64,000 nt of DNA from Geomonas ferrireducens (GTDB lineage Bacteria; Desulfobacterota; Desulfuromonadia; Geobacterales; Geobacteraceae): assembly GCF_004917065.1 (NCBI RefSeq), contig NZ_SSYA01000001.1, positions 309,001-373,000 on the forward strand, read 5' to 3'. The notes beneath the pieces are model-generated. The model was not told the origin of the DNA and made no database searches. It was given only the letters and a program-made list of their open reading frames with translations. Position 1 is the first letter of the stretch; each line of letters begins with the position of its first letter. A program made the translations under genes and the position numbers. This document shows, one piece after another, positions 12,388 to 64,000 of this stretch.

Positions 12388-12505
12388 ACGGAAGGCCCAA
12401 CGTCTCGCGCGGGGATTGCCGAGCGGATAGTGCAGATTTGCCTCATGCTTTGGCGCGTGCTGCCGATGTAATCAGGAAAAGCGGCACGAAATAAGCGGGG
12501 GGCGT

Positions 12506-13447
12506 ATGGAACCGAACAGCAAGATACTTCTGGAAAGCGGCACCAACGAGCTGGAAATAGTCGAGTTCAGGATCGATGAAATGGACGCCAAGGGGAACGT
12601 CGTTCCCTGCTACTTCGGCGTCAACGTGGCGAAGGTACGCGAGATCATCCGCCTCCCGGAGATCCGCAAGGTGGTAAACGCGAACGCCTCGGTAAGCGGC
12701 ATGATCAAGCTGCGCGACCAGGTGATCACCCTGATCGACCTCTCCCGCGCGCTCAACAAGAATACCGAGGGGATCCCGGCGGACCGGGTCATCGTCCTTG
12801 AGTTCAACCGGATCGTAGTGGGGATCCAGGTGCATTCGGTCTCCCGTATCTACCGCATCTCGTGGGAAAACGTGGAGCCCCCGGTAAAGGCGATCCACGA
12901 CGCGAACATAACCGGCGTCGTCAAGATGGAGGACCGCATCATCCTGATCCTCGACTTCGAAAAGATCATAGGGGAGCTCTCCTCGACCATGGCGCTCGCC
13001 GCGCCGGGAGAGGACCTGATGCTCGCGCATTCGACCGCGAACCGCGGCACGAAGACCATCCTGGTCGCCGACGACTCGGCTTTCATCAGGAGAACCATGT
13101 GCGGTTCACTCAGGGAGGCGGGTTACCGGGTGGTGGAAGCGGAAAACGGCGAGGAGGCGTGGGAGCACGTGCAGGCGGTACGCGAGAAATGCAAGGCGAG
13201 CGGGGAGCCCTACGGCAACCAGCTGAGCCTCGTCATCACGGACATCGAGATGCCCCGCATGGACGGTCTGCACCTGACGGCGCTGATCCGCAAGGAGGCG
13301 GACCTTGAGTATCTGCCCGTGGTCATCTTCTCTTCGCTTGCCAGCGAGGACAACAAGATGAAATGGCGCAACCTGGGCGCGAGCGACATCCTTACCAAGC
13401 CGGACCTGCCGAACCTGGTGCAAAAGGCGGACACCCTTGTCCTTTGA
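12506..13447 (+). CDS. cheV: Chemotaxis coupling protein CheV (CheW domain + receiver)
   Basis: Residues 10-165 form a CheW-like SH3 domain (VVPCYFGVNVAKVREIIRLP, SGMIKLRDQVITLIDL, GVVKMEDRIILILDFEKI). Residues 185-313 form a receiver with the acidic DD pair (TILVADDSAF), the phospho-acceptor Asp in VITDIEMPRMDG and a conserved Lys in LTKPDL. CheV couples receptors to CheA and tunes signalling through phosphorylation. It is isolated from other che genes here. The next gene overlaps its end by 11 bp. Confidence 0.93.
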   Translation: MEPNSKILLESGTNELEIVEFRIDEMDAKGNVVPCYFGVNVAKVREIIRLPEIRKVVNANASVSGMIKLRDQVITLIDLSRALNKNTEGIPADRVIVLEFNRIVVGIQVHSVSRIYRISWENVEPPVKAIHDANITGVVKMEDRIILILDFEKIIGELSSTMALAAPGEDLMLAHSTANRGTKTILVADDSAFIRRTMCGSLREAGYRVVEAENGEEAWEHVQAVREKCKASGEPYGNQLSLVITDIEMPRMDGLHLTALIRKEADLEYLPVVIFSSLASEDNKMKWRNLGASDILTKPDLPNLVQKADTLVL

Positions 13448-14477
13448 GCCATGCCCCGAGCTGTCGATCATCGTGCCGTTTTACAATGAGGCGGGGAACG
13501 TGGTTCCCTTCCTCACGGCGCTCTCCCGGCAGCAGGGGGTACACCTGGAGGTGATCCTTTCGGACGGCGCCTCCAGCGACCTGGGCAGGGATGAGGCGGA
13601 ACGGTTATCTAGCAAGCTCCCCTTTCCGGTCAGGGTGATCGAAGGGGAGAAGGGGCGCGCGGGACAGTTGAACCGCGGCGCCCTCGCGGCAAGGGGAACG
13701 ACGTTCCTCTTCCTGCACATCGATTCTTACTTCGAGGACCCGCTCGCCCTGCGCAAGGGGCTCGATGCGATAGCTGCAACGGGAGCGGCGCGGGTGGCCG
13801 GCCGCTTCGCCCTCAGCTTCGACTTTGCCGGAGCGACCCCGCTCCCATACCGTTTCTACGGACAAAAAGCGACCCTGGACCGCCCGGGATGCACCCACGG
13901 CGACCAGGGTTTTCTTATCGGCCGCGTCTTCTTCGAGGAGGCGGGTCCCTTCGACGCTGGCCTGCCGCTCATGGAAGACACCTTTTTCGCCGAGCGCGTG
14001 CGAAAGATGGGGCGCTGGCTTCTCTTGCCGCCCCGCATCAGCACCTCGCCGCGCCGCTTCTTAGCCGAGGGGCTCCTCCCCCGCCAATCGCTGAACGCGG
14101 TCCTGATGAACCTCGCCCACACCGGACATCTGCCGCTGATCCACGACCTGCAGAAAAGTTACCGAAGCCAGGATGCGACGGGGAAGCTCAGGCTCAGACC
14201 GTTTCTCGCGCCGCTCGCCGAGGCGATCCGCGCGCTGCCGCGTGAAGAGAGGCGCCGCCTGTGGCGCGAGACGGGTGCCTACGTGAGGGGGAACGCCTGG
14301 CAGATCGCCCTTTTCATGGACGTTGTGACCGGTGACGTAGAGGCGGGCAAGGGGGGAAGGTTTCTGCTTCTTTACGACCGCTTCGTGGCGCGGCTCATCG
14401 CCAACCGCGCAGGGGACCTGGGTGCGGAGCTCCTCACCAGGCTCTGGCTAAGGCTCACCCTCGCTGCCCTACCCTAG
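13437..14477 (+). CDS. Family 2 glycosyltransferase (TIGR04283-like), cheV-coupled
   Basis: The 346-residue GT-A protein opens with LSIIVPFYNEAGNVVPFL. The donor-site acidic motif is HIDSYFEDP and the acceptor-side motif is PLMEDTFFAERV. The start is a TTG inside the last codons of cheV; a nearby ATG at 13451 is out of frame. The C-terminal 110 residues are an extension beyond the core GT domain. The layout resembles the TIGR04283 arsenosugar/sterol-type glycosyltransferases, but the substrate cannot be told. The 3' end overlaps the convergent receiver-PilZ gene by 4 bp. Confidence 0.8.
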   Translation: MSFEPCPELSIIVPFYNEAGNVVPFLTALSRQQGVHLEVILSDGASSDLGRDEAERLSSKLPFPVRVIEGEKGRAGQLNRGALAARGTTFLFLHIDSYFEDPLALRKGLDAIAATGAARVAGRFALSFDFAGATPLPYRFYGQKATLDRPGCTHGDQGFLIGRVFFEEAGPFDAGLPLMEDTFFAERVRKMGRWLLLPPRISTSPRRFLAEGLLPRQSLNAVLMNLAHTGHLPLIHDLQKSYRSQDATGKLRLRPFLAPLAEAIRALPREERRRLWRETGAYVRGNAWQIALFMDVVTGDVEAGKGGRFLLLYDRFVARLIANRAGDLGAELLTRLWLRLTLAALP

Positions 14478-49835: not shown

Positions 49836-50045
49836 TCACCCAAACAACGAACAGCCTTGCTCTTTTAATCTTTCGATCATGTCTTGAAGGTCGTCTTCCG
49901 TCGTCTCGAAATGGTCGGCCATACACGCGAGACACATCATCCGTTCAATCTGCCGATGGATGAGTTTTTTGTTAAGTCCAATCTCATCCTTAGACAGCTT
50001 TTCCTTGTCGCAGTAGGCACAATGGATTGTTTTTCCTCCCCTCAT
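49836..50045 (-). CDS. Small Cys4 zinc-finger-like protein, coupled to brxL
   Basis: The 69-residue protein has two Cys pairs, CAYC (residues 9-12) and CLAC (38-41), spaced as in treble-clef or rubredoxin-like zinc knuckles. The intervening KLSKDEIGLNKKLIHRQIERM is conserved-looking; similar short proteins occur in anaerobes as unassigned genes. Its ATG overlaps the brxL stop (ATGA), so it belongs to the BREX operon. It could be an accessory subunit or regulator. Confidence 0.75.
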   Translation of the reverse strand: MRGGKTIHCAYCDKEKLSKDEIGLNKKLIHRQIERMMCLACMADHFETTEDDLQDMIERLKEQGCSLFG

Positions 50046-51499
50046 TGAGCGCCCTCACGTACCGTATAAGCGGCGACGTTCTTACCTCCGTATTCCAGCG
50101 GGTCCATCTTCTGTAACTGCTGCCGGATCACAGTTCGCATCTGCACGGCGGGACGCAAACAGTATCGCATAAACTCTCCCTTATCTATTTTCCCAGGAGC
50201 TATGACGTGCGGAAACAGCAATTTTAGGTAGGCTGTGCATAACCTTAAAATGGCTTCTGTGTCTCGTGTATCCGCGCCAGAAGGATATTCAACAAGCTTC
50301 CCAACGACATCCCGATAGATAAGTGTTTCTGCTGGTTCTCGCAGCAAATGCATTATTTCAGAAAAATACTCGGTATTCAGTGCCCATCCGTTGATTTTCA
50401 AATTCTCACTCATCCGCGGGATGTCGCGCCCCCGGATAAAACCGTGGAATCGATCCAATAGTGCTGACTCGTGAAACACTTCTGGCAGCCTCTGAAACAT
50501 ATCTTTGGTTTCGTCCATCTCTGTTTGAGGAATGTTGCCCAGTAGGATGACACCAGCCCCCCCAATGATGCGATTTTTACCTACAGTGATTTCACCACTT
50601 TCCATGTAAGCTTTCAGCCCGCCCTGCATCTCACTCGGGTCGTGGAAGTTAATCGACTGAATTTCGTCCAGCGCTACGAAATCATTCGACGCGATCAGAC
50701 CAGGACTCTTCCCATTGATATCACCAAACATCTTCGCCCGCGTCAGCGTTCCTCCGCTGACCAACCAGCCGTATTTCCCCACCCTCCCGAACATATACGA
50801 TTTGCCTGTGCCTTTGGGTGCTAATTCCACCAGATTAAGGCGCGGCTCAATGAACGGCAGTAAGCGTGTCAACACTGTATGCTTCTGCACCCAGCCTTCG
50901 TATCCCTCAGGGTTGTAATCAATTGCTCCCAACACAACATCGACCCACTCTTCGGTAGTGAATTGGCTGCGAGCCTCTCTATAGGCGTCCAGATCAATCG
51001 TATATGGGCAGAAGTTCTTGTATTCTAATAAGGTGAAACATCCTCGCGGAGTTTCGTTGTCCGGGCTGCGGTACCCCAGTTGTACCAGCCCCCAGCCACC
51101 AGCCGTCTTTACGACATCATCTTTAATCCGATTCCAGATATAGTCCTCGATCAGGGTTTCAGCATGCCCAAGACCCAGTTCTGGAATTGAAAACGTGTAC
51201 TCGTCGGATCTGACGCTGAACTGGATTTCAATCTTGGCGAGAAACTTTTTCGAGCGTCCCTCACTTCGAGCCGCGTCCTTCAATTCCAACAGATTCTCCC
51301 GGCGTGGGATGATTTCGTATATGTATTTTCGTAGAGCCTCCGCGTCATGGATTTTCCCATCGGATTCCGCTTTGCGCTTAAGAATCCAGTCACGCAAAAA
51401 CGACGGAATGGACGCCGCTTTGAAGATTGCCACGATATTAGGGGCCTTAAAGACCGTCGTATCCGGAAATGCCGCTCGCAATTTTTCTGTATCGACCAT
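50042..51499 (-). CDS. brxL: BREX protein BrxL (AAA ATPase), apparently without Lon protease domain
   Basis: The 485-residue protein has an N-terminal DNA-binding-type region. An AAA core follows, with Walker A LAPKGTGKSYMFGR (near residue 226) and Walker B DFVALDEIQS (near 273), then GGAGVILLGNIPQ and LLDRFHGFIRGRDIPR as sensor/arginine-finger regions. It ends about where BrxL proteins of type 1 continue into a Lon-like domain; no catalytic Ser/Lys dyad is seen. BrxL acts as a DNA-threading motor in phage exclusion. It lies 21 bp after pglZ. Confidence 0.85.
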   Translation of the reverse strand: MVDTEKLRAAFPDTTVFKAPNIVAIFKAASIPSFLRDWILKRKAESDGKIHDAEALRKYIYEIIPRRENLLELKDAARSEGRSKKFLAKIEIQFSVRSDEYTFSIPELGLGHAETLIEDYIWNRIKDDVVKTAGGWGLVQLGYRSPDNETPRGCFTLLEYKNFCPYTIDLDAYREARSQFTTEEWVDVVLGAIDYNPEGYEGWVQKHTVLTRLLPFIEPRLNLVELAPKGTGKSYMFGRVGKYGWLVSGGTLTRAKMFGDINGKSPGLIASNDFVALDEIQSINFHDPSEMQGGLKAYMESGEITVGKNRIIGGAGVILLGNIPQTEMDETKDMFQRLPEVFHESALLDRFHGFIRGRDIPRMSENLKINGWALNTEYFSEIMHLLREPAETLIYRDVVGKLVEYPSGADTRDTEAILRLCTAYLKLLFPHVIAPGKIDKGEFMRYCLRPAVQMRTVIRQQLQKMDPLEYGGKNVAAYTVREGAQ

Positions 51500-51519
51500 G
51501 GTTCATTAACCCCTTAAGA

Positions 51520-53646
51520 CTACAAATCGAAATCGTCTTTCTCTACAATTTGTGCCCGCTTGCCGCTAGTCCTTGCCTTCGGCACAAACTGGCCAGTCCG
51601 AGAGAAAACCACCACTGGGACCAATCTCTCCTCAAGCGTGGCCCCTCCGTGCAACTCGAAGCTCTGTCCGCCGCCACTCTTGGGCAGTCGATCGTACCCG
51701 CGTACCACCCAATGCCTGCCGTCCAATGTTTCCTCTAACTCCGGAGGACATCCGCCTTGCGCCGCCCGCTCACGGTAGCGCCAATCGGCGATTTCCGCAC
51801 CGGCCTCACATGGAAGGGTCTGTGCCAACCGTGGTTCGGCCTGCCAGGCCAAGACTGCCAAACGTGAACTACCGTGGTCTGCTGTGACAAGCACACGCTC
51901 AAACCGAGTTAGCCCCTCCGCCACGTGCGGCAAAACCTTGCCACCAATTACATTCAGCGCCGCTGCCAAGTTCTCCTCCGGGCGCCGCACCTCGTGCATC
52001 TCATCGCCGTTGTGCACAATGTTGTCGAGGCGTTTGATGTTCTGCAAGCATCTGACATCCGGCCAATGGATGTTGTTGAATTTGGTCGAGGTTGGCAAAT
52101 GTGCCTCACAAATTGCCACCGAATCCACGCCCAAATTCCGCTTCAAAGCCAGCGTCACCAACATTGGAAGCCACTCAGCGCCCATCGCGTCTACCACCAA
52201 TAAGGCACATCCACCGTCTGATGCATATCTTTGAACCATCGCGTCTCGCGATTGCACAGATTCCGGGGGCAACACGCGCTGCGCCCTCATGTAGAACTCT
52301 GGCGTCACGCGGCCGGCCATTTTCAGTTCTCGGTACTCCATAAAATACTCTTCCAGGGTCAGGTCACCGAAAACGAGATCGCTGTTCATATACATTGCCG
52401 CTTCTGGATAGACAGCTTTTACAGCATTTGACACCAGGCCATCCACTGCACACCGCCGTAGTAAATCCGCCCGCTCAGCATCCGTCCCGCAATTCAACCA
52501 CGCTGCGACTCGTGACGTGGATTCGCTGGTGCACCGCGTAATGAACTGCCGGATATCCATGCCAGACATTGGAACGTCAGCTTCCTGAATAGCGTCCCTA
52601 CGCTCGACAGCATACACCGACGAATCATCTAGCCATTCCGTGGCTCCCGTTACGTATGCGGAGCGGAAGTTGCCGACAACAACCTCCTCTTGCGCTACAA
52701 TTCGCTCGAGGTAACTTCCCTTGGGCGAGATCTGTTTAACCAGCCATAGTACAGCCTCGCGTTCAATCCCCCTAGACTCGTCAAACACACGCAGTATGCG
52801 CTTCGATACCTCGCCCTGTGGAAAAAACAGAGTCTTTAGAGTTTCGGACAAAGCGTTTTTCTCACCTTCTTTACCCCGCTCGCATATCCATCGCAAAGCC
52901 TCTTCGGATAATGCGGCATCTTCCAAGTTGTAAAAAACGCGAGCAAAATCTCGCAAAGACACAACTTGCCGCACCGCAGCGCTGAGCCCCGCCAATTCAC
53001 GTCCTTCAGAGGCCACAACTACCCGTCGCATAGAGATGCCGTTCGGATGATCCTCGGTATGTCGTAAGTACTTCTGAAATGTTTCGCAGCTTCCAGGAAT
53101 GTAGGATGCTAAATCTTTCCCGACCAGCATCACCTCGGGACGTCCAGCGACTCTTTCTGATTCCTCTGAGTCGGTAGACGACATAGCCTGCTCAGAATCA
53201 ATTTCTATCAGTTGCTTCCCTTGGCGGTAGCGCGGATTAGCGAAAACTTCCCTGAGTATGTTCCCTAAGCCCTCAACATTCTGCAAAAGCAAAACGGCTT
53301 CTCGCCCAGTGGCACCATCCAACCACTCCCGTAAAGCGAAAATTGCGGACCGTCTATTCTCTTCCGTCAACAACCCAAGATAGCCGCTCCCCCCCAGCAA
53401 TACCACAGGCTCAGGGTTTGCCGCCTTTATCTTGATTGCATCGAAAACCCGCTCTAAAATTTCGCTTGGCATTGGAAGCCAGGTATTTTCCGTTACAAGA
53501 TCGCTCAATCGCAACTCAATGCTGCCACGCACTTGGTAGAATCGGCGCAATGTTGTCGAACTTTCTCCTGGTGGTACAATCACCACCCGAGCTTTTGCGT
53601 TTGAAAGCGGATTCCTGATGTATTCGCAGTACTCGTTCAAAGTCAT
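51520..53646 (-). CDS. pglZ: BREX protein PglZ (alkaline-phosphatase superfamily)
   Basis: The 708-residue protein's C-terminal half carries the PglZ metal-site features: LLVVDAMGAEWLPML near residue 482, HLPTSTKFNNIHWPD and LVTADHGSSRLAVL near 588. The N-terminal half is a BREX-specific helical region. PglZ is the hallmark of all BREX systems; its nuclease/phosphatase-like domain is needed for defence and, in other types, modification. It starts 4 bp after brxC, with GGAG inside the end of that gene. Confidence 0.9.
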   Translation of the reverse strand: MTLNEYCEYIRNPLSNAKARVVIVPPGESSTTLRRFYQVRGSIELRLSDLVTENTWLPMPSEILERVFDAIKIKAANPEPVVLLGGSGYLGLLTEENRRSAIFALREWLDGATGREAVLLLQNVEGLGNILREVFANPRYRQGKQLIEIDSEQAMSSTDSEESERVAGRPEVMLVGKDLASYIPGSCETFQKYLRHTEDHPNGISMRRVVVASEGRELAGLSAAVRQVVSLRDFARVFYNLEDAALSEEALRWICERGKEGEKNALSETLKTLFFPQGEVSKRILRVFDESRGIEREAVLWLVKQISPKGSYLERIVAQEEVVVGNFRSAYVTGATEWLDDSSVYAVERRDAIQEADVPMSGMDIRQFITRCTSESTSRVAAWLNCGTDAERADLLRRCAVDGLVSNAVKAVYPEAAMYMNSDLVFGDLTLEEYFMEYRELKMAGRVTPEFYMRAQRVLPPESVQSRDAMVQRYASDGGCALLVVDAMGAEWLPMLVTLALKRNLGVDSVAICEAHLPTSTKFNNIHWPDVRCLQNIKRLDNIVHNGDEMHEVRRPEENLAAALNVIGGKVLPHVAEGLTRFERVLVTADHGSSRLAVLAWQAEPRLAQTLPCEAGAEIADWRYRERAAQGGCPPELEETLDGRHWVVRGYDRLPKSGGGQSFELHGGATLEERLVPVVVFSRTGQFVPKARTSGKRAQIVEKDDFDL

Positions 53647-53650
53647 GCAA

Positions 53651-56600
53651 TCACTCCAGCACGGAAAGCCCTACGTCCGGGATTTCATCAATGAGGTTCA
53701 GGAGCAGTATCTTTGCCTCAGCATCGGGAAGCATACTGACCTTTTCCGCAGCCTGCTTCCTGGCATGCGTATCGTATCCCTGCTTAACGAATGCCTCAAC
53801 CGCATCCCGAAGTCCTCCGTCCGTCAACCATCTACCCGGAGAGTCACCCAGTTTTTTAGATAACCAATCGCTCAACTCCCCCACGCTGAAACCGATCTTT
53901 TGATATCGCACAGGCAGCACTCCTTTGAGAAATTTTTCACCGGCCGTGCCAACATCTAGGAATACCCCCTCTTTCCGAAGCACGTCGTACACTGACTGTA
54001 ACCGTTCCGCAGACACGCCTCCTGGGTTCGCGACCGCATCAACGATGTACTTGGCATCGTTCACTGCCAAAAGGCATTCTGCGGGCAGCGCGTGTTTGGT
54101 GCTCCACTCGACAGGCGAGTCAGTGCCTGTGCGTTCGTGCCACAGGGCACCAACCTGTTTGGAAACCAGCGTCCGGCTGTACTCCTCAATCTTATTACGC
54201 CCTTGTACTTTAAAGCTTTGTTCATCGATTCTCGCCGAGCCCTGGGGAAAAACATTATAAAGTTCGCGGCTTTCTGCATTCTCAATCGGCCACAATTCTC
54301 CAAAAATTTCCCGCATCGCCCCAAGTTGCCGCCCTTGTGCCACATCGAAGAAAACCTGGCAGATAACCTCGTTTTGCTGTTCCAGAATCTCCTCTAAGTT
54401 TTTCACGTCCTCCCCGGACAACGACTGCCTATTCAGCAAATCAAAGAATCGTTGCAACGCTGGAAATTTCTTTACCCAGAAATCTGTTGGCACCTTGTTT
54501 TCGCTCAGCACCGCCGTCTGCAACAGATTAAACGCGTCTTCGAAACCCATGTATCCCGATGAGCCCGTCAGGCCACGCACATGCTCAGCGCACAGGGTCT
54601 GCCTAAAAACCTCTTCCAGTACGGACTCGGCGTCTCCGGGTTTCCATAGCCAACCGCTGGTCTCAGCAAAGCGATTTTTGACCGCCTTACAATAGATGTG
54701 CGACAAGTCGCCCCCACGTTCAGCTGCGGTCTTCAACTCTGGCTTGGCACTATCGACATACTGCTGGAATGCCTTCTCAAAGACTACCGGCGTCATATAC
54801 TCGGCCATCGCTTCCGCCAACCCGGGGGTCGCCAAAAGAATCTTGCCAATCTCCTTGACCTTATTGCCGCGCGTCTCGGTGTCTCCTTTGGAGCTGATGA
54901 CGTTCGCTGCGCACAGTGCGTCGAGAACTTTGCTCATTGCCTCTGCACTCGGATCGGCTTGCGCACGGATATATTCGGGCAGCACCCATAGCGGTACGCG
55001 CTGTGAGATCTGTCCTAAACGTGTCCCAACCGCGTTCAGTGCAGCCTCCACAGTTCCGTCCGCAAGTGGACTGTTTCCGAAAATCACGCTGCTCTGTTCG
55101 ATGAATGCCTTTTCCTCCTTGGAAAGGCGACAAATCAATTTCTCGGACTTGATCTCATTGGCGCCGTCGTCTTTTACCACCGCCTCAATGATTTCAGCTA
55201 GCGCCGCTTCGTCCAAGGTTTTGCTAGTGACGCCATCGGTCCATTGCAGTTTGCGCTGTCCCGTCAACCATGTCTTCAGCACAAAGCCCAGCACAAAGGC
55301 TGAATGCGGTACACACATCAAGCCGAACGGCGGCCGTTGCAGGTCAATGTAGAGTTTACGTATAGAGCAAGGGTTGCCATCTCCTACCGTGTTGTCCTGT
55401 CGTTTCTTGCAGAATTCCATCAGTTGCATGAGTGGGTGGCTCGGATTTGCGTCGAACCATTTTTCGTCACCAGTTACGCCGCACTTCTGCCATGACGCCA
55501 CCACAGTTTTCCACGCTCCGGGCTTCGCGAATTTATCGAACTCCATCCCCGCCAGTGCCCAGCTCTGCAAGGCAGTCGGTGCAGCAAACGCACTGATGTT
55601 GAAGCCGCTCAAATGGTCAGTATATGCCCCGAACATCTGTTTCGCATAGGTCGTGAGCCAGTCTATTTTCAGTTGGGCCCATGTCACTTCTTCAGCGTAG
55701 GGTTCGCCGTTTAAGTTCGGTTTGTACACTATGAGCTTGGCAGCACTCGTTACCTTAGAAAGCCACGCGACTTTGGCACTGTTGACCTGAGTTTCGAACA
55801 CCCTCTTGCTTGCGCTGTCAGTAGCCAATGCAAGACGGGCACTGTTTTCTGTAAACTCATCCCACGCTTTCGCGTTGTCGCGGCAGAAGTTAACCTCCGG
55901 AAGCGTCACAAAGAGCATTCGGTGGTCTTTAAATTGTTTTGCCAACTCTTTTGCTTTCTCGGGAATTCGGAGTTGTTCCTGCTCATCCCGGGCCAGAATA
56001 AACTGAACAAGTATCCGGTTCCCATAGTCCCCAAACGATTCTTTTTTTGTGATGTTTGATGCTGAAAGGCTGCTGACTCCTGCCGAGCGAACATCAAAAC
56101 GCCCACCGTAGTTCACACCTTTTAGTTGCTTGGCCAACTCCGGCTCGGTGTCTTTCAGCACCAGGTCGCCAAACTTGCCTTCCAAGGCAGCTTTCTTCTC
56201 CTCAATTTCCTTTGTATTGGAACGGTCACGGAAACGTTCGCAACGTCCATGTACAATATCGAAACAATGCTTTTGTGCTAAATTGCGTAGGATTGCATCC
56301 ACCCCTGGCAAGGCGCCGTCCCCTTCAAAACTACGTAGGATATTTTCGACCGCAACGCTCAGCAACGGATGTGCTTTTCCCTGCATCTGCTCGATCAACC
56401 CGAACAACAGCACAGCCTTGAAGACTCGCTGTTCTTCTGGCTGTAAATCCTTTTCTCGACGAGCGTATTCCGCACGTGCGTCCTGCACAGCGTGTATCGT
56501 ACCTAGGTCGTCCCGTTCAACAAAATAACACCACAGATGATCCACCGTCAGGAACTGATGACCGAAAACATCCATCCCGCCCTTTTCAATGAAAGCCCTG

Positions 56601-57805
56601 AATTCCTCACCGTTTAAAAACTCGAACATGCTCCTTTGGTTTGCTCCAACTGTTACAGACAGATGTTTCAACAGGAACGCAGCCATCGGGTGCAAAGGCA
56701 AGATTCCCATGAAATCTGCCGTATCGATGCCCGCCTTGTTGACTGCCATGTAGTTTTCAGCGACGCCTTTCACACTGTGCCACAGTACGTCACGCTCTTG
56801 CATCCACTCGGTTTGCTTCTCCGGATTAACTACGAATGCGTCTGCTGCCAACTTAAGGGCTGTCTCATTTGGCAGATCGAGCTGTCTGAAGGTAAAGCGA
56901 TTGTTCGCCTTCTTTGCGCTTTCCGAGCCAGGAGCGACATAAGATGAAATGTCCGTATGTGTCACAGGTACAAAATAGAATCGACCTTGTTGCGCTGCCT
57001 CAGCCAATTGCTCCAAAGTCTTTAATTCCATCCGGTTCCGTTCCATGAACGCCGAAAATTCGTCCCAGATATAGACCAACTTTGAAAGTCCGTTTGCTTC
57101 TAAGGATGCTTCCACCCATTCCAGGAACTCCTCGGGGCTCAAATCCAAATAGACCTTTCGTGCCTCAAGTACTCGCATGGCGTCGCTGACCAACCCTGCT
57201 TCGAGGTTCTTATCCCGTAAACACTTCTCCAACGCATTCGCTGTTTTAATACCTGGATTCAGATGTGAAAGCCGTGTTTGCATTTCATCGCGCTTAGCGA
57301 AGAAATAAGGCTCGTCCTGCCGGATGCGCTCAATGACTTCATCCAGTTGGCCCTTCAGTGGAATGATATGACCACCCGTTTCCAGTGCCTTTGTGATGCC
57401 GCGCTGCAAGCGCATCAGAAATTGGTTTTTCGCATCCACGCCATCCGCGTTCACATCATAGACTACGAGCACTTTATCTCGACGCCGGGCAAGCACCCCG
57501 TTACGTACAGGTGCTGGAATTTGTTTCATACGGAGATCCAGCCACTCCAGGACACGGGAATCATCGTCCATGAAAAGTTTTTGCAAAACCAGAGACGCGA
57601 AGCTCTTGCCGGTGCCATACGCGCCCGTTATCCAAAGCGTCTTGTTCCCGCCTTCCAAACTTTTGAGAAGTTCCCGCAAAATCTCTACGAATGAATTATG
57701 AGGATAGAACCCCAGCCACGTTTTTGGCGTCTTGTTTATGTCCGCCAAAGTCATGCACGGCACGTAATCCGGTTTAATTCCGAAATAGTCCTTGTAGAAA
57801 GTCAT
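53651..57805 (-). CDS. brxC: BREX protein BrxC/PglY (large P-loop ATPase)
   Basis: The 1384-residue protein has Walker A WITGAYGTGKSFASLVL (residues 59-75) and Walker B LVYIWDEFSAFME near residue 245. The N-terminus (MTFYKDYFGIKPDYVPCMTL) and size are typical of BrxC/PglY. The long C-terminal region is helical and unassigned. It is the ATPase core component and lies 36 bp after brxP. Confidence 0.9.
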   Translation of the reverse strand: MTFYKDYFGIKPDYVPCMTLADINKTPKTWLGFYPHNSFVEILRELLKSLEGGNKTLWITGAYGTGKSFASLVLQKLFMDDDSRVLEWLDLRMKQIPAPVRNGVLARRRDKVLVVYDVNADGVDAKNQFLMRLQRGITKALETGGHIIPLKGQLDEVIERIRQDEPYFFAKRDEMQTRLSHLNPGIKTANALEKCLRDKNLEAGLVSDAMRVLEARKVYLDLSPEEFLEWVEASLEANGLSKLVYIWDEFSAFMERNRMELKTLEQLAEAAQQGRFYFVPVTHTDISSYVAPGSESAKKANNRFTFRQLDLPNETALKLAADAFVVNPEKQTEWMQERDVLWHSVKGVAENYMAVNKAGIDTADFMGILPLHPMAAFLLKHLSVTVGANQRSMFEFLNGEEFRAFIEKGGMDVFGHQFLTVDHLWCYFVERDDLGTIHAVQDARAEYARREKDLQPEEQRVFKAVLLFGLIEQMQGKAHPLLSVAVENILRSFEGDGALPGVDAILRNLAQKHCFDIVHGRCERFRDRSNTKEIEEKKAALEGKFGDLVLKDTEPELAKQLKGVNYGGRFDVRSAGVSSLSASNITKKESFGDYGNRILVQFILARDEQEQLRIPEKAKELAKQFKDHRMLFVTLPEVNFCRDNAKAWDEFTENSARLALATDSASKRVFETQVNSAKVAWLSKVTSAAKLIVYKPNLNGEPYAEEVTWAQLKIDWLTTYAKQMFGAYTDHLSGFNISAFAAPTALQSWALAGMEFDKFAKPGAWKTVVASWQKCGVTGDEKWFDANPSHPLMQLMEFCKKRQDNTVGDGNPCSIRKLYIDLQRPPFGLMCVPHSAFVLGFVLKTWLTGQRKLQWTDGVTSKTLDEAALAEIIEAVVKDDGANEIKSEKLICRLSKEEKAFIEQSSVIFGNSPLADGTVEAALNAVGTRLGQISQRVPLWVLPEYIRAQADPSAEAMSKVLDALCAANVISSKGDTETRGNKVKEIGKILLATPGLAEAMAEYMTPVVFEKAFQQYVDSAKPELKTAAERGGDLSHIYCKAVKNRFAETSGWLWKPGDAESVLEEVFRQTLCAEHVRGLTGSSGYMGFEDAFNLLQTAVLSENKVPTDFWVKKFPALQRFFDLLNRQSLSGEDVKNLEEILEQQNEVICQVFFDVAQGRQLGAMREIFGELWPIENAESRELYNVFPQGSARIDEQSFKVQGRNKIEEYSRTLVSKQVGALWHERTGTDSPVEWSTKHALPAECLLAVNDAKYIVDAVANPGGVSAERLQSVYDVLRKEGVFLDVGTAGEKFLKGVLPVRYQKIGFSVGELSDWLSKKLGDSPGRWLTDGGLRDAVEAFVKQGYDTHARKQAAEKVSMLPDAEAKILLLNLIDEIPDVGLSVLE

Positions 57806-57841
57806 GTTCTATCCCTCTGTAATCAGTGACCCATCTGTGCT

Positions 57842-60199
57842 TCAAATCTTTTCCAAGATCAGAGCGACAACGTCATCACAAGTTTTCGTCCCCGAGGCCA
57901 CCCGCACTTCGTCCAATCCCAGGGTAAAGCTGCACGCGATGAAGTCTGGATGCATCGCCGCGAGTCCCATGCACTGTTTCTTGAAATCATCCGGAGATAT
58001 GCCGAAAGCGGCCAGTGGTGACACGACTTCCACATCGAACTCCGTCACCATCATTTGCCGCACAGTAAATGCACCTCGGCCAGATTTTTCCGCCATCACA
58101 TAAAGCCCATATAGAACTGTCAGTGGATCCACCGGACGCGAACAGTGCATGAGCTTTTCAACAGCTCTCCCCTTCATTTCGGCATGAATCAACGCCTCGG
58201 CTCCTTCCCCAAGCGGAGAAGACTTAACCAGTTGGCAAAGGGATTGTAATGCGCCTTTCCTCACCGATGCCGAACCTACTGATTGACTAAGCTTTTCATC
58301 AATCTCTTTCATATGGAAATGGACATCGATCTCAGTATTGCAAACATACCATTTAACGAGCGGCGAAGTATTTGCTAGACGAAACCACAGCAGGTGCCAA
58401 AACAGCAAATCACTAAACCCTCGTTTTTTGCCAACTTCTAAAAGCAGGTTTGTGGTAATGGCCGTGGAATCTCCAATCAACCCCGCCTCGCGGAACCATG
58501 TCACGGCTGCTGGAACCATCCTGTTACCCAAGGCAGTTGTCTGCCGGAAATTGGCACCCGCGTTGGCTAGGACTTCAATCCATTCGGGTTTCAGTCCAAA
58601 AGTCATGTATTTATTAATTCCACTGATGTTCATAGTCTTTGCTCCTGCATACCTTTTTGAGTAATATCGCCAACATCCATCATCAGGTGCAAAGCATCTC
58701 ATGCAACTGATGCACGTTACGTCATCGATACGAACCTTCGTGTTGCCATTACAGGTATCTTTCTCAAACCGTAAAGCTCCTGTCGGACATTCCGCCTCGC
58801 ATGAGTTACATCCGGTGCAGGACATTGCCTTGTGGACAGCGTACACCAGCCACTTTGAGACGGCCTTGTCGGCCTTACCGTTTGACCAGACACATTCTAA
58901 CACCCCTCTCTGCCCGTCTTCACGGAATGACAACTCAGTGCCTTCAATTTTTCCAAGAGCCTTGAGCCATTCTTTCAAGGCTCGTTCTGCTTCAATTGGG
59001 TACTCACAAATTATGCGGTCGCTTTTGCGTTCTACGCCAGGTTCTACAATAACGTGTTTCAAAGACACGCCGCTTTTCCGCGCATGCCATCCGCCTTCGT
59101 AAACGAATGCATCCGCGTCTTCCTCAGATGAAAATTCGCGGTCAATCGTGTTACGCACGGCATTAGCAAACGGCGCGACCTTTTCCGGATAATTCATACG
59201 AATCAGGTCATTTTGGCGGTCAGTTGACATCGGACACATCAGACATCCAACACGTGGCAAACCTTTTCGATATGCTTCGTTCAGCAACAACTTGTGCTCA
59301 AAAATGTAAAGCCACAGTTCATGGGCAGACCAAGCCAAAATTGGCATGGCATTTACCTGCGATTGGCTTTTCAATCCATCGCCAATGTCCTCGTATCCCG
59401 AACGCCGTTGACTCTCCTCACCACGGACCCCAACAAATGCCAAAGTATTGATAGACCGTTTACCAAGCCTTTCCTTGAGAGCTAATATTGCGGGAGTGCT
59501 CTTGTGAACAGAACAGCACCAACGCAACGCTTGCGACGGTGGTCCGAACTGCCGCCAGTTCTCCAATGCCGGGGTTTTTGCGGAGACCTTCAAAAAAGGA
59601 CGGCCTTTGTACAGGTTTTGAATCTGTTCCCAGATGCTGTATGTATCCGGAAGCTCCATATCTGTATCACTGAAAACGACTGGAATGTCTAATGGCAGAA
59701 CTTTGTGGCAAAGGTCGAGCAGAACAACTGAGTCCTTGCCGCAACTGAAACCTATATAGACAGCATCACATTTTCCAGCGTAGGCATCGTACATTTCCTT
59801 GATACGTTTGAGCGTATCTGCCACCAACGCTGACATGATGTCACGATTTTCGGCAACCAGCACCTCAACATCAACCGGAACCAAATTCAATTTTGTTCTT
59901 GGCTTCACACTCGTGGATGGAGCTTCGGTCTCGCACAAAACCCCCTTCCACTCGATGTCCACCTTACCATTTCGTTTCTTATGGAGTTTTGCTATTTCTT
60001 CACCGCGATACAGGAATACGTTCTGTTTCGCCCAAAGGAGAGGGCGCCGCTCTACCGGATCGAACGCCAATCTTGCCTCCAACTCCATGGCTGTTAACTC
60101 TTCTGCGAAGACTGGGCGAATTTCACTCGCCACGAATTTCCCTGTCTGCGTTGTCAGACGGTATCTGCCCGTGCGCTTGTCCCACTCGTAGCTATACAT
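57842..60199 (-). CDS. brxP: BREX type 4 protein BrxP: PAPS-reductase-like, ferredoxin and DUF4007 fusion
   Basis: The 785-residue protein starts MYSYEWDKRTGRY, with GGAGG nine bases upstream. Residues 145-370 form a PP-loop PAPS-reductase domain (GFSCGKDSVVLL; VFSDTDMELPDTY; RWCCSVHKS; GVRGEESQRR; GCLMCPMS) like DndC. A 2x4Fe-4S ferredoxin-like module follows (CTGCNSCEAECPTG near 457, CISCMRCFAPDDGC near 495). Residues 522-785 form DUF4007 (TALGNRMVPAAVTWFREAGLIG). BrxP defines BREX type 4. The PP-loop plus iron-sulfur chemistry suggests a DNA sulfur-type modification in place of PglX methylation; this is inference. Confidence 0.9.
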   Translation of the reverse strand: MYSYEWDKRTGRYRLTTQTGKFVASEIRPVFAEELTAMELEARLAFDPVERRPLLWAKQNVFLYRGEEIAKLHKKRNGKVDIEWKGVLCETEAPSTSVKPRTKLNLVPVDVEVLVAENRDIMSALVADTLKRIKEMYDAYAGKCDAVYIGFSCGKDSVVLLDLCHKVLPLDIPVVFSDTDMELPDTYSIWEQIQNLYKGRPFLKVSAKTPALENWRQFGPPSQALRWCCSVHKSTPAILALKERLGKRSINTLAFVGVRGEESQRRSGYEDIGDGLKSQSQVNAMPILAWSAHELWLYIFEHKLLLNEAYRKGLPRVGCLMCPMSTDRQNDLIRMNYPEKVAPFANAVRNTIDREFSSEEDADAFVYEGGWHARKSGVSLKHVIVEPGVERKSDRIICEYPIEAERALKEWLKALGKIEGTELSFREDGQRGVLECVWSNGKADKAVSKWLVYAVHKAMSCTGCNSCEAECPTGALRFEKDTCNGNTKVRIDDVTCISCMRCFAPDDGCWRYYSKRYAGAKTMNISGINKYMTFGLKPEWIEVLANAGANFRQTTALGNRMVPAAVTWFREAGLIGDSTAITTNLLLEVGKKRGFSDLLFWHLLWFRLANTSPLVKWYVCNTEIDVHFHMKEIDEKLSQSVGSASVRKGALQSLCQLVKSSPLGEGAEALIHAEMKGRAVEKLMHCSRPVDPLTVLYGLYVMAEKSGRGAFTVRQMMVTEFDVEVVSPLAAFGISPDDFKKQCMGLAAMHPDFIACSFTLGLDEVRVASGTKTCDDVVALILEKI

Positions 60200-60389
60200 T
60201 CGTGCCGCCCTCCGGCACGATGCCATTGTTTTTGCAGATAATATAATGCGTATTACTAGTTATGATGGTTTCCTTCATAGTCGGCGCAGCCCACCCACTA
60301 TCACTTTCAAAATTCTCCACAATATCTCCGTATTCAGCGTATCTCGCCCACTCAGCATAATAACGATTTTTGCTGGCATTTTTAGTCAA
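60192..60389 (-). CDS. Possible small ORF overlapping the brxP start
   Basis: A 65-codon frame begins at TTG and ends in a TAG that overlaps the brxP ATG by 8 bases, as translationally coupled genes do. The peptide has a protein-like composition (RYAEYGDIVENFESDSGW; TSNTHYIICKNNG). No ribosome site is seen before the TTG and an in-frame stop lies just upstream. It may be a leader peptide, a gene remnant or chance. Confidence 0.3.
   Translation of the reverse strand: MTKNASKNRYYAEWARYAEYGDIVENFESDSGWAAPTMKETIITSNTHYIICKNNGIVPEGGTNV
60201..60219 (-). promoter_or_regulatory. Hairpin presenting the brxP Shine-Dalgarno in its loop
   Basis: CGTGCCG and CGGCACG form a perfect 7-bp stem. On the minus strand the 5-nt loop is GAGGG, the core of the brxP ribosome site, ending one base before the ATG. 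This may tune translation of the first BREX core gene. Confidence 0.6.
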
Positions 60390-60455: not shown

Positions 60456-61613
60456 TCAGCTAGCGGCGAATTCTTCGCTTCCCGGGTCTTTGTCGTGTAG
60501 GCGCTCCCATTTGAGTCGCAACCGACGCTCCCACAATGATTCGCCTTCATAACTGAAATGTGCAAAACCATTTACGACCACCCCACCTAATAAATGCATT
60601 GCCAACGGCGAAATCGCCCATGCTTTGCCGCCGTACTCCACCTGATTGGAGTCATCCAGTACAGTGCAAGTGATACGACTGTCCTTTGTGAAGAATAGCT
60701 TTGCGCCGATTGGCACACCAAGACTGTGAAAGCGCGTATTGGGACTACGGACGCGCTTGCCCGCCATGGTGCCGCCATCTCCATTAGTACGAAGTCTCTT
60801 CGTATTTGGAAATGCGTTTTTCCCACCGTGATAATGTTTTGCGCAGATCCGCATGAAGGTATCGTTATCCGTTAAGGCATATTCCGTGCGGAAGCGCACA
60901 CAGTAGAGTAAATTCAAAGCAAACTCTAAATTGGCAACAGACACTCTTTCTTCAAGCATAACCAGCGTGTCGACGATGGTGGTCAGCCTACTCGAAAAAT
61001 CCTCTGGTAGGAAAACCCCGTCTGCGTTGCGCCAACAAGGTACTCCGCCCACTTCCGCCTCATGGACTTCCGGAAGGAAAAGCTCTCGGATGCTCTCTAA
61101 TGCCTCGGCACTGAGGTGTGGCATCTCCGTTTCTATCTCGTGAACGGTCAAAGTGCCGTCCGCCTCTTCAAGCCATCCTGCAATCTTCTCTGAGATTGCC
61201 GCCAAACGTTCCTCTAAGCTAGATTCAGGCTGACAACAGAAGAGCCCCCCCTTCCTACCCGTAGCAATCGTGAATCCCATATGCCCAAGAAGCGCAGCAC
61301 AATCCTCTAACGTGGCTATATTACGGAAAACGCTGCAAAAAGCTTCCAACAACCGTTCGACCGCAAAACAACCGTATTCCATAAGCCATGCCATCGCCTG
61401 TCCATTGAATGCAGACAACGACTCTTCATCCAAAATCATCTCGCATGTAAACCACAGCCCACTCTTCGACCGGAACATGGCTGATTTCAAATCCTCGACC
61501 TGCCAATCTTCAAATGGGACTTTCTGCCGCAATAGTCGCACGGCCATGGCATCGAATGACACGCCATTGGGGCATACCCGCGTGAATGCCGTCAAAAGCT
61601 CAGGAATCGTCAT
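60456..61613 (-). CDS. Winged-helix protein with RAMA/DUF4357-like C-terminal domain, first gene of the BREX operon
   Basis: The 385-residue protein has GGAGGG five bases before the ATG. Residues 1-250 look like tandem winged-helix regions (GTLTVHEIETEMPHLSAEALESIRELF; ERVSVANLEFALNLLY). Residues 290-375 read LGVPIGAKLFFTKDS, VLDDSNQVEYGGKAWAISPLAMHLLGG, then FSYEGESLWERR. This matches the RAMA/DUF4357 pattern of proteins associated with adenine methylases and restriction enzymes. RAMA-type domains are thought to read DNA modification. It lies 257 bp before brxP. Confidence 0.75.
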   Translation of the reverse strand: MTIPELLTAFTRVCPNGVSFDAMAVRLLRQKVPFEDWQVEDLKSAMFRSKSGLWFTCEMILDEESLSAFNGQAMAWLMEYGCFAVERLLEAFCSVFRNIATLEDCAALLGHMGFTIATGRKGGLFCCQPESSLEERLAAISEKIAGWLEEADGTLTVHEIETEMPHLSAEALESIRELFLPEVHEAEVGGVPCWRNADGVFLPEDFSSRLTTIVDTLVMLEERVSVANLEFALNLLYCVRFRTEYALTDNDTFMRICAKHYHGGKNAFPNTKRLRTNGDGGTMAGKRVRSPNTRFHSLGVPIGAKLFFTKDSRITCTVLDDSNQVEYGGKAWAISPLAMHLLGGVVVNGFAHFSYEGESLWERRLRLKWERLHDKDPGSEEFAAS

Positions 61614-61819: not shown

Positions 61820-62023
61820 TTAAGAGCCGAATATCGGTCCGAACGTCTCCTCGAGTTTCCTACGTGCCTCCAGGGTTACCCCACGAGTTCCCTTCAGTTT
61901 GCCGTCTAAAAGATCAGCAACAATGCGCTGATGAAGCCCGTTCTTAGCAGCCCAAGATGTGACACTTTCACCAATATCCACAAGTTTGTGGGCCACAATT
62001 TTCTTTCTCTGGTCTTTCTCCAT
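61820..62023 (-). CDS. Small HTH DNA-binding protein
   Basis: The 67-residue protein starts MEKDQRKKIVAHKLVDIGES, with AGGGTG six bases upstream; the frame is open 57 bp further up but lacks a ribosome site. The HTH reads SVTSWAAKNGLHQRIVADLLDGKLKGTRGVT, in the style of phage/plasmid Cro-like or YdaS-like regulators. Its promoter carries a perfect dyad, so it probably represses itself. It lies 207 bp before the RAMA-like gene and may control the BREX operon. Confidence 0.75.
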   Translation of the reverse strand: MEKDQRKKIVAHKLVDIGESVTSWAAKNGLHQRIVADLLDGKLKGTRGVTLEARRKLEETFGPIFGS

Positions 62024-62064
62024 ACTGGCACCCTTGTTTCTTAGCCCCCTCTCAAACTGCCCGG

Positions 62065-62093
62065 ATACTACTCTTATCAAGAGTAGAAGTCAA
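62065..62093 (-). promoter_or_regulatory. Promoter with operator dyad of the small HTH gene
   Basis: On the minus strand: TTGACT (62093-62088), 17 bp spacer, TAGTAT (62070-62065). The spacer is largely filled by a perfect inverted repeat CTACTCTT-GAT-AAGAGTAG (62068-62086), a classic position for a repressor. Confidence 0.75.
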
Positions 62094-62224: not shown

Positions 62225-63079
62225 TTATTTACCCTTCGGCGGCATTACCACCTTCTTCATCTGCTCATTGATTCCTGCAATTTGCTGCGCAGTGTAGAAG
62301 AGTACGTCGCGACCGGTGTCAGTCCCAAGAAGCCTTGTTGTAATGTTGCCGAGGAAGTCGCCATAGGCTGTGGAGAAAGGGATTGATGCATGTTGAGGGA
62401 ACTGATCCTCAAGAAGTATCTTGTGGTCTATTAGTGATAGAGCTTCTGAAAAAGCGGCAATAATGAGATTCCTAGCGACGTCCCCTTTCCCTTCTTTCAC
62501 CATCCTTTTGTACCATCTCTGGCTGTCAGGGGCAGGGAGAAGGCTGATGAGGGTCAAGACGGAGTATGGTTGACTTTCCGGTACCTCTATCATCGTTAGG
62601 TTAATGACTAGCCTTCCACCAACATATCCCCAGTCGATTCCCCAATCGGTATGCCAGTTAGGTTTTTCGAGCCGGTTCCGCCATTCGTTGGTCACCTTAG
62701 CAACCGCTTCATGTATGGTACGAAGGCCCTCGTCAAAATTTGTACGGAAATCGGCGTACATTTTTTCGCGTAGGAAAATGGGGATGTCGCAGTCTCGAAA
62801 GAGCACAGGGAGGATGACTATCCGCCGCTCTTCAAGTTCTCGGATTAAGCCGCTGTTCAACTCCTTTCTGCACCATTCTGAGGCAACAGCATCTGGTGAG
62901 AGGACCACAAGAAGTGCACTAGCATCTGTGATCGCCTGTTGGACCTTATCGATTATGGACTCGCCAACATGCATTTCCCACCGATCAAGCCAGACATGTA
63001 CATTCCGCGCGACCAGTTGCATAGCAAGATTATCGACGAAGTCCTTATCTGTGTGAGAGTAGCTGATAAAAAGCGGCAT
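62225..63079 (-). CDS. TIR-domain protein
   Basis: The 284-residue protein has a TIR domain at residues 1-135: FISYSHTDKDF at the N-terminus, HVWLDRWEMHVGESI, and SPDAVASEWCRKEL, where the NADase Glu of TIR enzymes lies. Bacterial TIR enzymes cleave NAD+ or make cyclic ADP-ribose signals. The C-terminal half is unassigned (SVLTLISLLPAPDSQRWYKRMVKEG). It starts 45 bp after the caspase stop and is most likely in the same operon. Confidence 0.88.
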   Translation of the reverse strand: MPLFISYSHTDKDFVDNLAMQLVARNVHVWLDRWEMHVGESIIDKVQQAITDASALLVVLSPDAVASEWCRKELNSGLIRELEERRIVILPVLFRDCDIPIFLREKMYADFRTNFDEGLRTIHEAVAKVTNEWRNRLEKPNWHTDWGIDWGYVGGRLVINLTMIEVPESQPYSVLTLISLLPAPDSQRWYKRMVKEGKGDVARNLIIAAFSEALSLIDHKILLEDQFPQHASIPFSTAYGDFLGNITTRLLGTDTGRDVLFYTAQQIAGINEQMKKVVMPPKGK

Positions 63080-63124
63080 TTTCCCCTCGATTTCGCTCCA
63101 GATTCTTCAACGTCCTGGGAAATT

Positions 63125-64000
63125 TTAGATACGACCTTGCTCGACTAATCTGCGATAGTGTTCACCAAGGACAGTTAGCCTACATGCCTTGTTCCCCATC
63201 GCTGCGTGCCACATATGAGGAGCATCAACAGGGACTACAAGCCCGACACGGTTGTATTTCTGTAAAATTGCGAATTTTGCCGTATTGACCGGGTTGGGTG
63301 CCGGAATTGACAGATCTGCCCCTTGTCGCTCAGGCTCGAAGGACGGATCGAGAGGGAACTCATCTCCCGCTTTAGGGAAAAATTCGGTAATGCGTTGCAG
63401 TTCAGTCAGGGCCACTGGGGCCTGAACCCTTCGAAGAGAGACGAAGCTTTTTACATTTGTTTTAAATACCGGACGCTGGTCCCATGGCCCAAGAGACTGG
63501 TCTATGTGAGCATAGACACTACCAGGCGTTACATCACCAACAAGGTTCCCCGCAGCGCCGCTCAAGGCATCGACAAGCAACGTGGTGAAGACACCCGCTC
63601 CATTCTTTTCCGAGGCATACTGTTCGGCAGTAGAGGCAGTCAGGATTGTCGTTCCTTCTTTGAGTTCTGCGACATTCGAAGCCAAGGCTGAATTTCCGGC
63701 AACTCCAGAGTGGCAGCTGTCCAGTATGATGATGCGATTTCTGGCAGACGATTGGTTGGCGAACGCAACAACCTCGCTGAGCGGTATCCCTTCATCGCCG
63801 GATTTTGCATCGCTTGCAATCAGGTAGCCGCCGGTGCTCTCAATGTGACCATGTCCTGCGAAGTAAAAGAGTGCGGTCTCACATTCTCCAGCAAATAGTT
63901 CCCTGATGCCGTCCCGGAGTTGTGCCCGTTTGACGAAATCCGAAGGACCTGTTCCTGTTAAAAGCTTTGTCCCGAAGTTGACAGTTCCGTCACTGTTCCG
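63125..64000 (-). CDS. Caspase-like protease (peptidase C14), 5' part outside the window
   Basis: The frame is open from the window edge to the stop at 63125; 291 codons are visible. The catalytic His lies in [10 protein letters not shown] (63853-63851) and the catalytic Cys in ILDSCHSG (63715-63713), the caspase/metacaspase dyad. The C-terminal 80 residues ([22 protein letters not shown] ... [18 protein letters not shown]) form a small extra domain. With the adjacent TIR protein this resembles a signal-activated protease effector pair. Confidence 0.88.

Follow-up and report, generated by a model that had tools for sequence, protein, structure and literature searches.

The caspase-like protease at the right edge of the 64,000-nt window (the whole stretch of DNA analysed, G000:C1:309001-373000) is very probably the effector of a type IV Thoeris operon, with a ThsB-type gene upstream of it encoding the dedicated TIR. 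By the same assignment, the TIR_2 gene that follows the protease gene lies outside the conserved unit and would encode a stand-alone NADase in a defence island. Type IV Thoeris was reportedly described by Rousset et al. in Science in 2025. The sequence-only reading had correctly placed a TIR gene next to a caspase-like protease gene on one strand: both ORFs are present on the minus strand, and the 284-aa TIR is separated from the protease by 45 nt. Its advice to extend the sequence rightwards mattered. The right flank was read 13 kb further and yielded the complete 324-aa caspase together with a ThsB-type TIR gene 5 nt upstream of it (ThsB-type stop to caspase ATG, both on the minus strand), the 3' end of which lies 105 bases beyond the window end. 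The order along the minus strand is therefore ThsB-type TIR, caspase, TIR_2:

Window-equivalent 64105-64497 (G000:C1:373105-373497; L002:7105-7497), minus strand: ThsB-type TIR, 130 aa (P0002), first gene, outside the window.
Window 63125-64000, continuing to window-equivalent 64099, minus strand: caspase-like protease, full length 324 aa (P0001), Pfam Peptidase_C14.
Window 63125-63424, minus strand: C-terminal ~99 residues of the caspase (226-324), past the part covered by the listed solved caspases.
Window 62225-63079, minus strand: TIR_2 protein, 284 aa, third gene, Pfam TIR_2.

The first gene is preceded by a GGAGG motif and its product matches Pfam ThsB_TIR above the cut-off. Glu80 of this protein, which we take by comparison with TIR NADases to be the catalytic-type Glu, is invariant in all 33 aligned ThsB-type proteins. 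A ThsB-type TIR gene on the same strand is found immediately upstream of the caspase gene (within 121 nt, the distance in L112, which was scored as adjacent) in 48 of 50 loci from plasmids, viral contigs and genomes and in 7 of 7 further genome loci, giving 55 of 57 overall. Plasmids account for 26 of the 57 loci (out of 52 plasmid records with the caspase), viral contigs for 13 and genomes for 18; partial matches (L077, L091, L115), weak ones (L092-L098) and a ThsB locus without caspase (L122) were excluded, two loci with a cut caspase match were retained (L121, residues 1-254; L143, residues 1-233), and near copies are present among the caspase loci (L089/L090 and L081-L084). The HMM used for the ThsB-type genes was trained on 33 of the upstream genes counted; L123-L138 and L139-L145 are outside the training set. 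The two exceptions are L084, in which a shorter ThsB-like ORF stops 179 nt short of the caspase, and L135, in which the ThsB-like gene is inverted. In a third, viral contig L148, which is outside the 57, ThsB and caspase are on opposite strands. Among plasmids, 26 records carry a ThsB relative, of which 23 belong to the 52 caspase records (8 of the 23 with a caspase fragment only) and 3 are absent from the caspase list. Furthermore, contigs of the same size, e.g. 12,985, 4,876 and 1,000,345 bases, recur among the listed relatives of the caspase and of ThsB. Since ThsB lies upstream in 55 of the 57 caspase loci and the relatives of TIR_2 are without ThsB (see below), the conserved unit is ThsB plus caspase. 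Thus, the sequence-only reading named the right type of system and the wrong TIR: it had proposed the 284-aa protein as the partner, and the conserved partner is the 130-aa ThsB-type TIR.

The protease has the catalytic features expected of a type IV Thoeris effector. The ORF inside the window (291 aa, cut by the window end) matches Peptidase_C14 of Pfam with E 2.8e-07, which improves to 2.3e-14 for the full protein starting at the ATG at window-equivalent 64099. The intact His-Cys dyad claimed for the protease is borne out: YFAGHGH and DSCHSG are present, and H83 and C129 are invariant in 31 of 31 aligned relatives, and the protein has a caspase fold. Likewise, the FISYSH and SxWCxxE motifs recognized in the TIR_2 protein are found at residues 4-9 and 67-73 (SEWCRKE), and Glu73 is invariant among all 40 aligned relatives. 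Given such conservation, neither the TIR nor the caspase motifs are due to chance, and the lack of a TIR active site, named in advance as an objection to the pair, was not observed: the active-site Glu and the caspase dyad are both present. The part of the caspase following the catalytic domain is also conserved, with 20 of the 99 columns of residues 226-324 invariant among 31 sequences, and the structure matches listed stop at model residues 224-228. These C-terminal ~100 residues could be the ligand-binding part. None of the PDB matches listed for the caspase model is a type IV Thoeris caspase, which rules out nothing, and a search of solved structures with the partial caspase sequence gave no match at E 0.1. 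No NCBIfam Thoeris model scored above its cut-off: the best caspase model reached 92 bits against 140, and ThsB had no match at E 0.01.

The caspase has at least 8000 relatives, as every candidate scored (the 8000 with most common words) passed the threshold. Among the matches listed, relatives are 76-85% identical and come from Thauera, Geothrix, Nitrospira and Aeromonas, among other sources; such near-alike proteins in far-apart taxa speak for a wide spread of the caspase by horizontal transfer. On plasmids, the caspase is found in 52 of 72,556 records, 9 of these being fragments. The nine fragments H129-H137, from Salmonella, E. coli and Klebsiella plasmids, match caspase residues 1-128 only, uniformly at 59.4% identity, and apparently represent one truncated copy that has spread. 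In three type IV loci a subtilase (S8) gene lies directly 3' of the caspase gene (L109:2499-3671, L113:2499-3689, L136:4007-5164), and in L086, L129, L130, L131 and L135 a metallophosphoesterase gene follows it, immediately, behind a small gene or past a gap.

A TIR gene lying 5 nt from a caspase-like gene on a shared strand, in one predicted operon, corresponds to what defines type IV Thoeris. Compared by description with the systems in the available parts of PMC12847820 and PMC13373217, the locus is alike in its single-strand operon of TIR and caspase-like genes with intact catalytic residues, and differs in that an additional TIR_2, of another TIR family, follows the caspase. In the type IV system, according to the portion of PMC12847820 available, the TIR senses the phage and makes N7-cADPR; this activates the protease, which breaks down proteins of the cell. 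We infer the mechanism of the present operon from that published system; gene order, protein families, catalytic residues and the near-invariant ThsB-caspase linkage are direct observations. Upon phage infection, the ThsB-type TIR would convert NAD+ to the cyclic ADP-ribose isomer N7-cADPR, which would bind the caspase, probably via its conserved C-terminal part. The activated caspase would then degrade cell proteins and production of phage would be halted, as in other suicide-type defences. The core ThsB-caspase operon is of a known kind, and only the extra TIR could be new, its tie to the caspase being unproven. With the likely partner of the protease named, a test of the TIR_2-caspase pair would not fail for the wrong reason.

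The TIR_2 protein (Pfam TIR_2, E 1.8e-30) consists of an N-terminal TIR domain (residues 1-131) and a C-terminal alpha/beta domain (residues 134-278). It has the TIR fold with the active-site Glu, as do stand-alone TIR NADases; it differs from AbTir and BtTir (PDB 7uwg/7uxu and 7uxr) in the additional C-terminal domain of ~150 residues. Among the PDB matches listed, one (9mud) extends into this domain, which may be a sensor of phages. A scan of one genome per species, 84,980 species in all, gave 70 loci with TIR_2 relatives. In 50 of them the match reaches at least residue 235, in 3 it ends at residues 160-176, and the remaining 17 match no more than part of the TIR domain. Three of the 70 have less than 1,000 nt upstream; 47 of the genome loci are full-length matches with at least 1,100 nt upstream, where the caspase gene is located in the window. 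The expectation of the sequence-only reading that the two genes co-occur did not hold. A ThsB gene was found beside none of the relatives (0 of 70 genome loci and 0 of 3 viral loci), and a caspase match of any kind beside one of the 70 and none of the 3. The single case, L056, is a Chloroflexota MAG that matches the TIR part and has a caspase-like match nearby (25% identity, 4e-06). Moreover, only 2 of 49 TIR_2 genomes searched whole encode such a caspase at any position. Conversely, the only one of the 57 caspase loci to contain the C-terminal half of TIR_2 is that of the window itself, and TIR_2 is found on 1 of 72,556 plasmid records, with the TIR part only. The commonest neighbours of TIR_2 relatives are other TIRs (5 of 53 loci), and no neighbour is conserved. 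TIR_2 is thus most likely a stand-alone TIR NADase or abortive-infection protein of the same defence island, with NAD+ cleavage without a partner suggested solely by the absence of any conserved neighbour in the 53 loci.

Nevertheless, the 45-nt gap and the common strand fit co-transcription of TIR_2 with the ThsB and caspase genes, and of the 56 caspase loci that remain when the window's is set aside, 13 have a second TIR on the same strand beside the ThsB-caspase pair (L074, L102, L109, L113, L114, L118, L119, L121, L129, L130, L131, L140, L141), so that a functional tie is possible. Promoter and terminator scans of the three-gene region gave sites not above those of shuffled controls, and therefore neither support nor rule out co-transcription of the three genes. 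'Beside the pair' here means on the same strand and ~100 nt or less from either end. The second TIR of L121 is within 100 nt by the longest ORF only, and that of control L054 lies 106 nt away; in L074 the TIR upstream is clear and the one downstream is weak, scoring below the Pfam cut-off, and L114 was counted on one search alone. Further loci have another TIR more distant or on the opposite strand (L085, L117, L135 and L136 by HMM, L132 by annotation). Among the control set of TIR_2 relatives, which is itself TIR-anchored, another TIR is so placed in 5 of 70 loci (Fisher p 0.019, calculated with 12 of the 13 known). The excess over controls is modest, and the stronger evidence is membership in a single family. 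Indeed, 11 of the 13 second TIRs, all except those of L074 and L119, belong to one family of ~158 aa with a WVPWEIGVA motif (alignment A7), including L118:5011-5487, L102:5945-6421, L129:2113-2595 and others. On plasmids, the caspase is also carried by 16 of the 16 records with this family, with variable adjacency; the 16 include the query itself, four near-copy Agrobacterium records and one Klebsiella match of 77% coverage and 38.5% identity. In genomes, the family occurs in 2 of 398, both among the 6 caspase genomes and both beside the pair, and it is found on one viral contig (L148), which carries caspase and ThsB. Collectively, the ~158-aa TIR and the caspase are found together in 19 of 19 hits over the three collections. 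In L148 the ~158-aa TIR gene lies 38 nt before the ThsB-type TIR gene, and the caspase gene is ~1.2 kb away on the other strand; this contig is a rearranged type IV locus.

These data leave room for a three-gene variant of the system, which we consider doubtful yet possible. TIR_2 would be a second sensor for the same caspase, recognizing other phages via its C-terminal domain and producing an NAD-derived signal identical to, or compatible with, that of ThsB. Its position 45 nt downstream of the caspase on the same strand, its intact Glu73, the greater frequency of a second TIR beside the pair than in controls and the constant company of the ~158-aa TIR and the caspase are all in line with such a role. 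Multiplication of TIRs around one effector also has a parallel in type I Thoeris, in which extra ThsB copies were proposed as further sensors for one effector, as stated in the available part of PMC7272460. The present locus resembles type I systems with several ThsB (PMC7272460 and PMC11204291, both seen in part) in having more than one TIR gene per effector and in the match of its ThsB to Pfam ThsB_TIR, and differs in the effector, a caspase-like protease here and a SIR2-SLOG protein in type I. Against a three-gene system, no second example of TIR_2 with this caspase was found among 73 loci, and TIR_2 is of a different family from the accessory TIRs. Membership of TIR_2 in the ~158-aa family was considered and rejected: it shares 20-26% identity over part of the TIR domain, a range that refers to those members that align, and none of the 57 caspase loci apart from the window's contains the C-terminal half of TIR_2. 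The ~158-aa family has no member in the window genome at E 0.01. TIR_2 could accordingly be either a recruited substitute for the accessory TIR or a mere neighbour. A wider proposal, which we regard as unlikely, is that type IV Thoeris is modular, with a fixed ThsB-caspase pair and room for a second TIR that would broaden the range of phages recognized while using the same protease; this place would usually be taken by the dedicated ~158-aa family, to date found with this caspase alone, and here by a TIR drawn from a family that is solitary elsewhere and brings its own sensor domain. Whether type IV Thoeris operons have two TIRs per caspase is thus a general question raised by this locus, and the ~158-aa family offers a concrete place to examine it. 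No account of an accessory or second TIR in Thoeris was found in the literature searched, which did not cover the founding type IV paper, and the available portions of PMC12847820 and PMC13373217 mention no second TIR in type IV systems. TIR_2 also matches the TIR part of the type III Thoeris model ThcB4 of NCBIfam, far below its cut-off (36.5 bits versus 220), the match being confined to 80 residues of the TIR domain; no paper on type III Thoeris or ThcB was found in the literature searched.

That TIR_2 and the caspase form a two-gene type IV pair to which the ThsB-type gene is incidental is highly improbable. The two genes are adjacent on one strand and their motifs are intact, but the near-invariant neighbour of the caspase is the ThsB-type TIR, and the relatives of TIR_2 lack the caspase. 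TIR_2-caspase as a conserved unit was therefore rejected, in view of 73 loci without ThsB, the one weak caspase match and the 2 caspase-bearing genomes of 49. Least probable of all is that the caspase serves another system, such as a Canu caspase-nuclease in which it would cleave a partner pro-enzyme: Canu loci have a bacterial MALT1-like caspase within a defence island, according to the available part of PMC12799240, MALT1 is the best of the PDB matches listed for our caspase model, and subtilase or metallophosphoesterase genes are among the neighbours of some relatives, but the MALT1 match spans the catalytic domain common to all caspases, the caspase is almost always partnered by a ThsB-type TIR, and no nuclease domain was found among the neighbours scanned with Pfam, for which reason the Canu assignment was rejected.

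The preferred assignment, a ThsB-caspase operon with a separate TIR_2, is set in a region rich in defence genes. TIR_2 lies between the ThsB-caspase operon and a BREX set to its left (window 50042-60226), which, with BrxP, BrxC, PglZ and BrxL, is presumably type 4 BREX, and further TIR_2 genes lie on the other side of the operon:

Window 57842-60226, minus strand: BrxP.
Window 53651-57805, minus strand: BrxC.
Window 51520-53646, minus strand: PglZ.
Window 50042-51499, minus strand: BrxL.
L002:11431-12375 and 12484-13455, minus strand: two adjoining Pfam TIR_2 genes with differing C-terminal halves, 4-6 kb upstream of ThsB.

The region is a defence island, and therefore adjoining genes may belong to separate systems. 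Between the BREX set and TIR_2, a small ORF (window 61820-62080, minus strand) has a phage-associated match, to BcepMu gp16, at 35.8 bits versus a cut-off of 34. A 385-aa ORF adjoining BrxP (window 60456-61613, minus strand) matches at its end the PADLOC candidate defence family PDC-S57.
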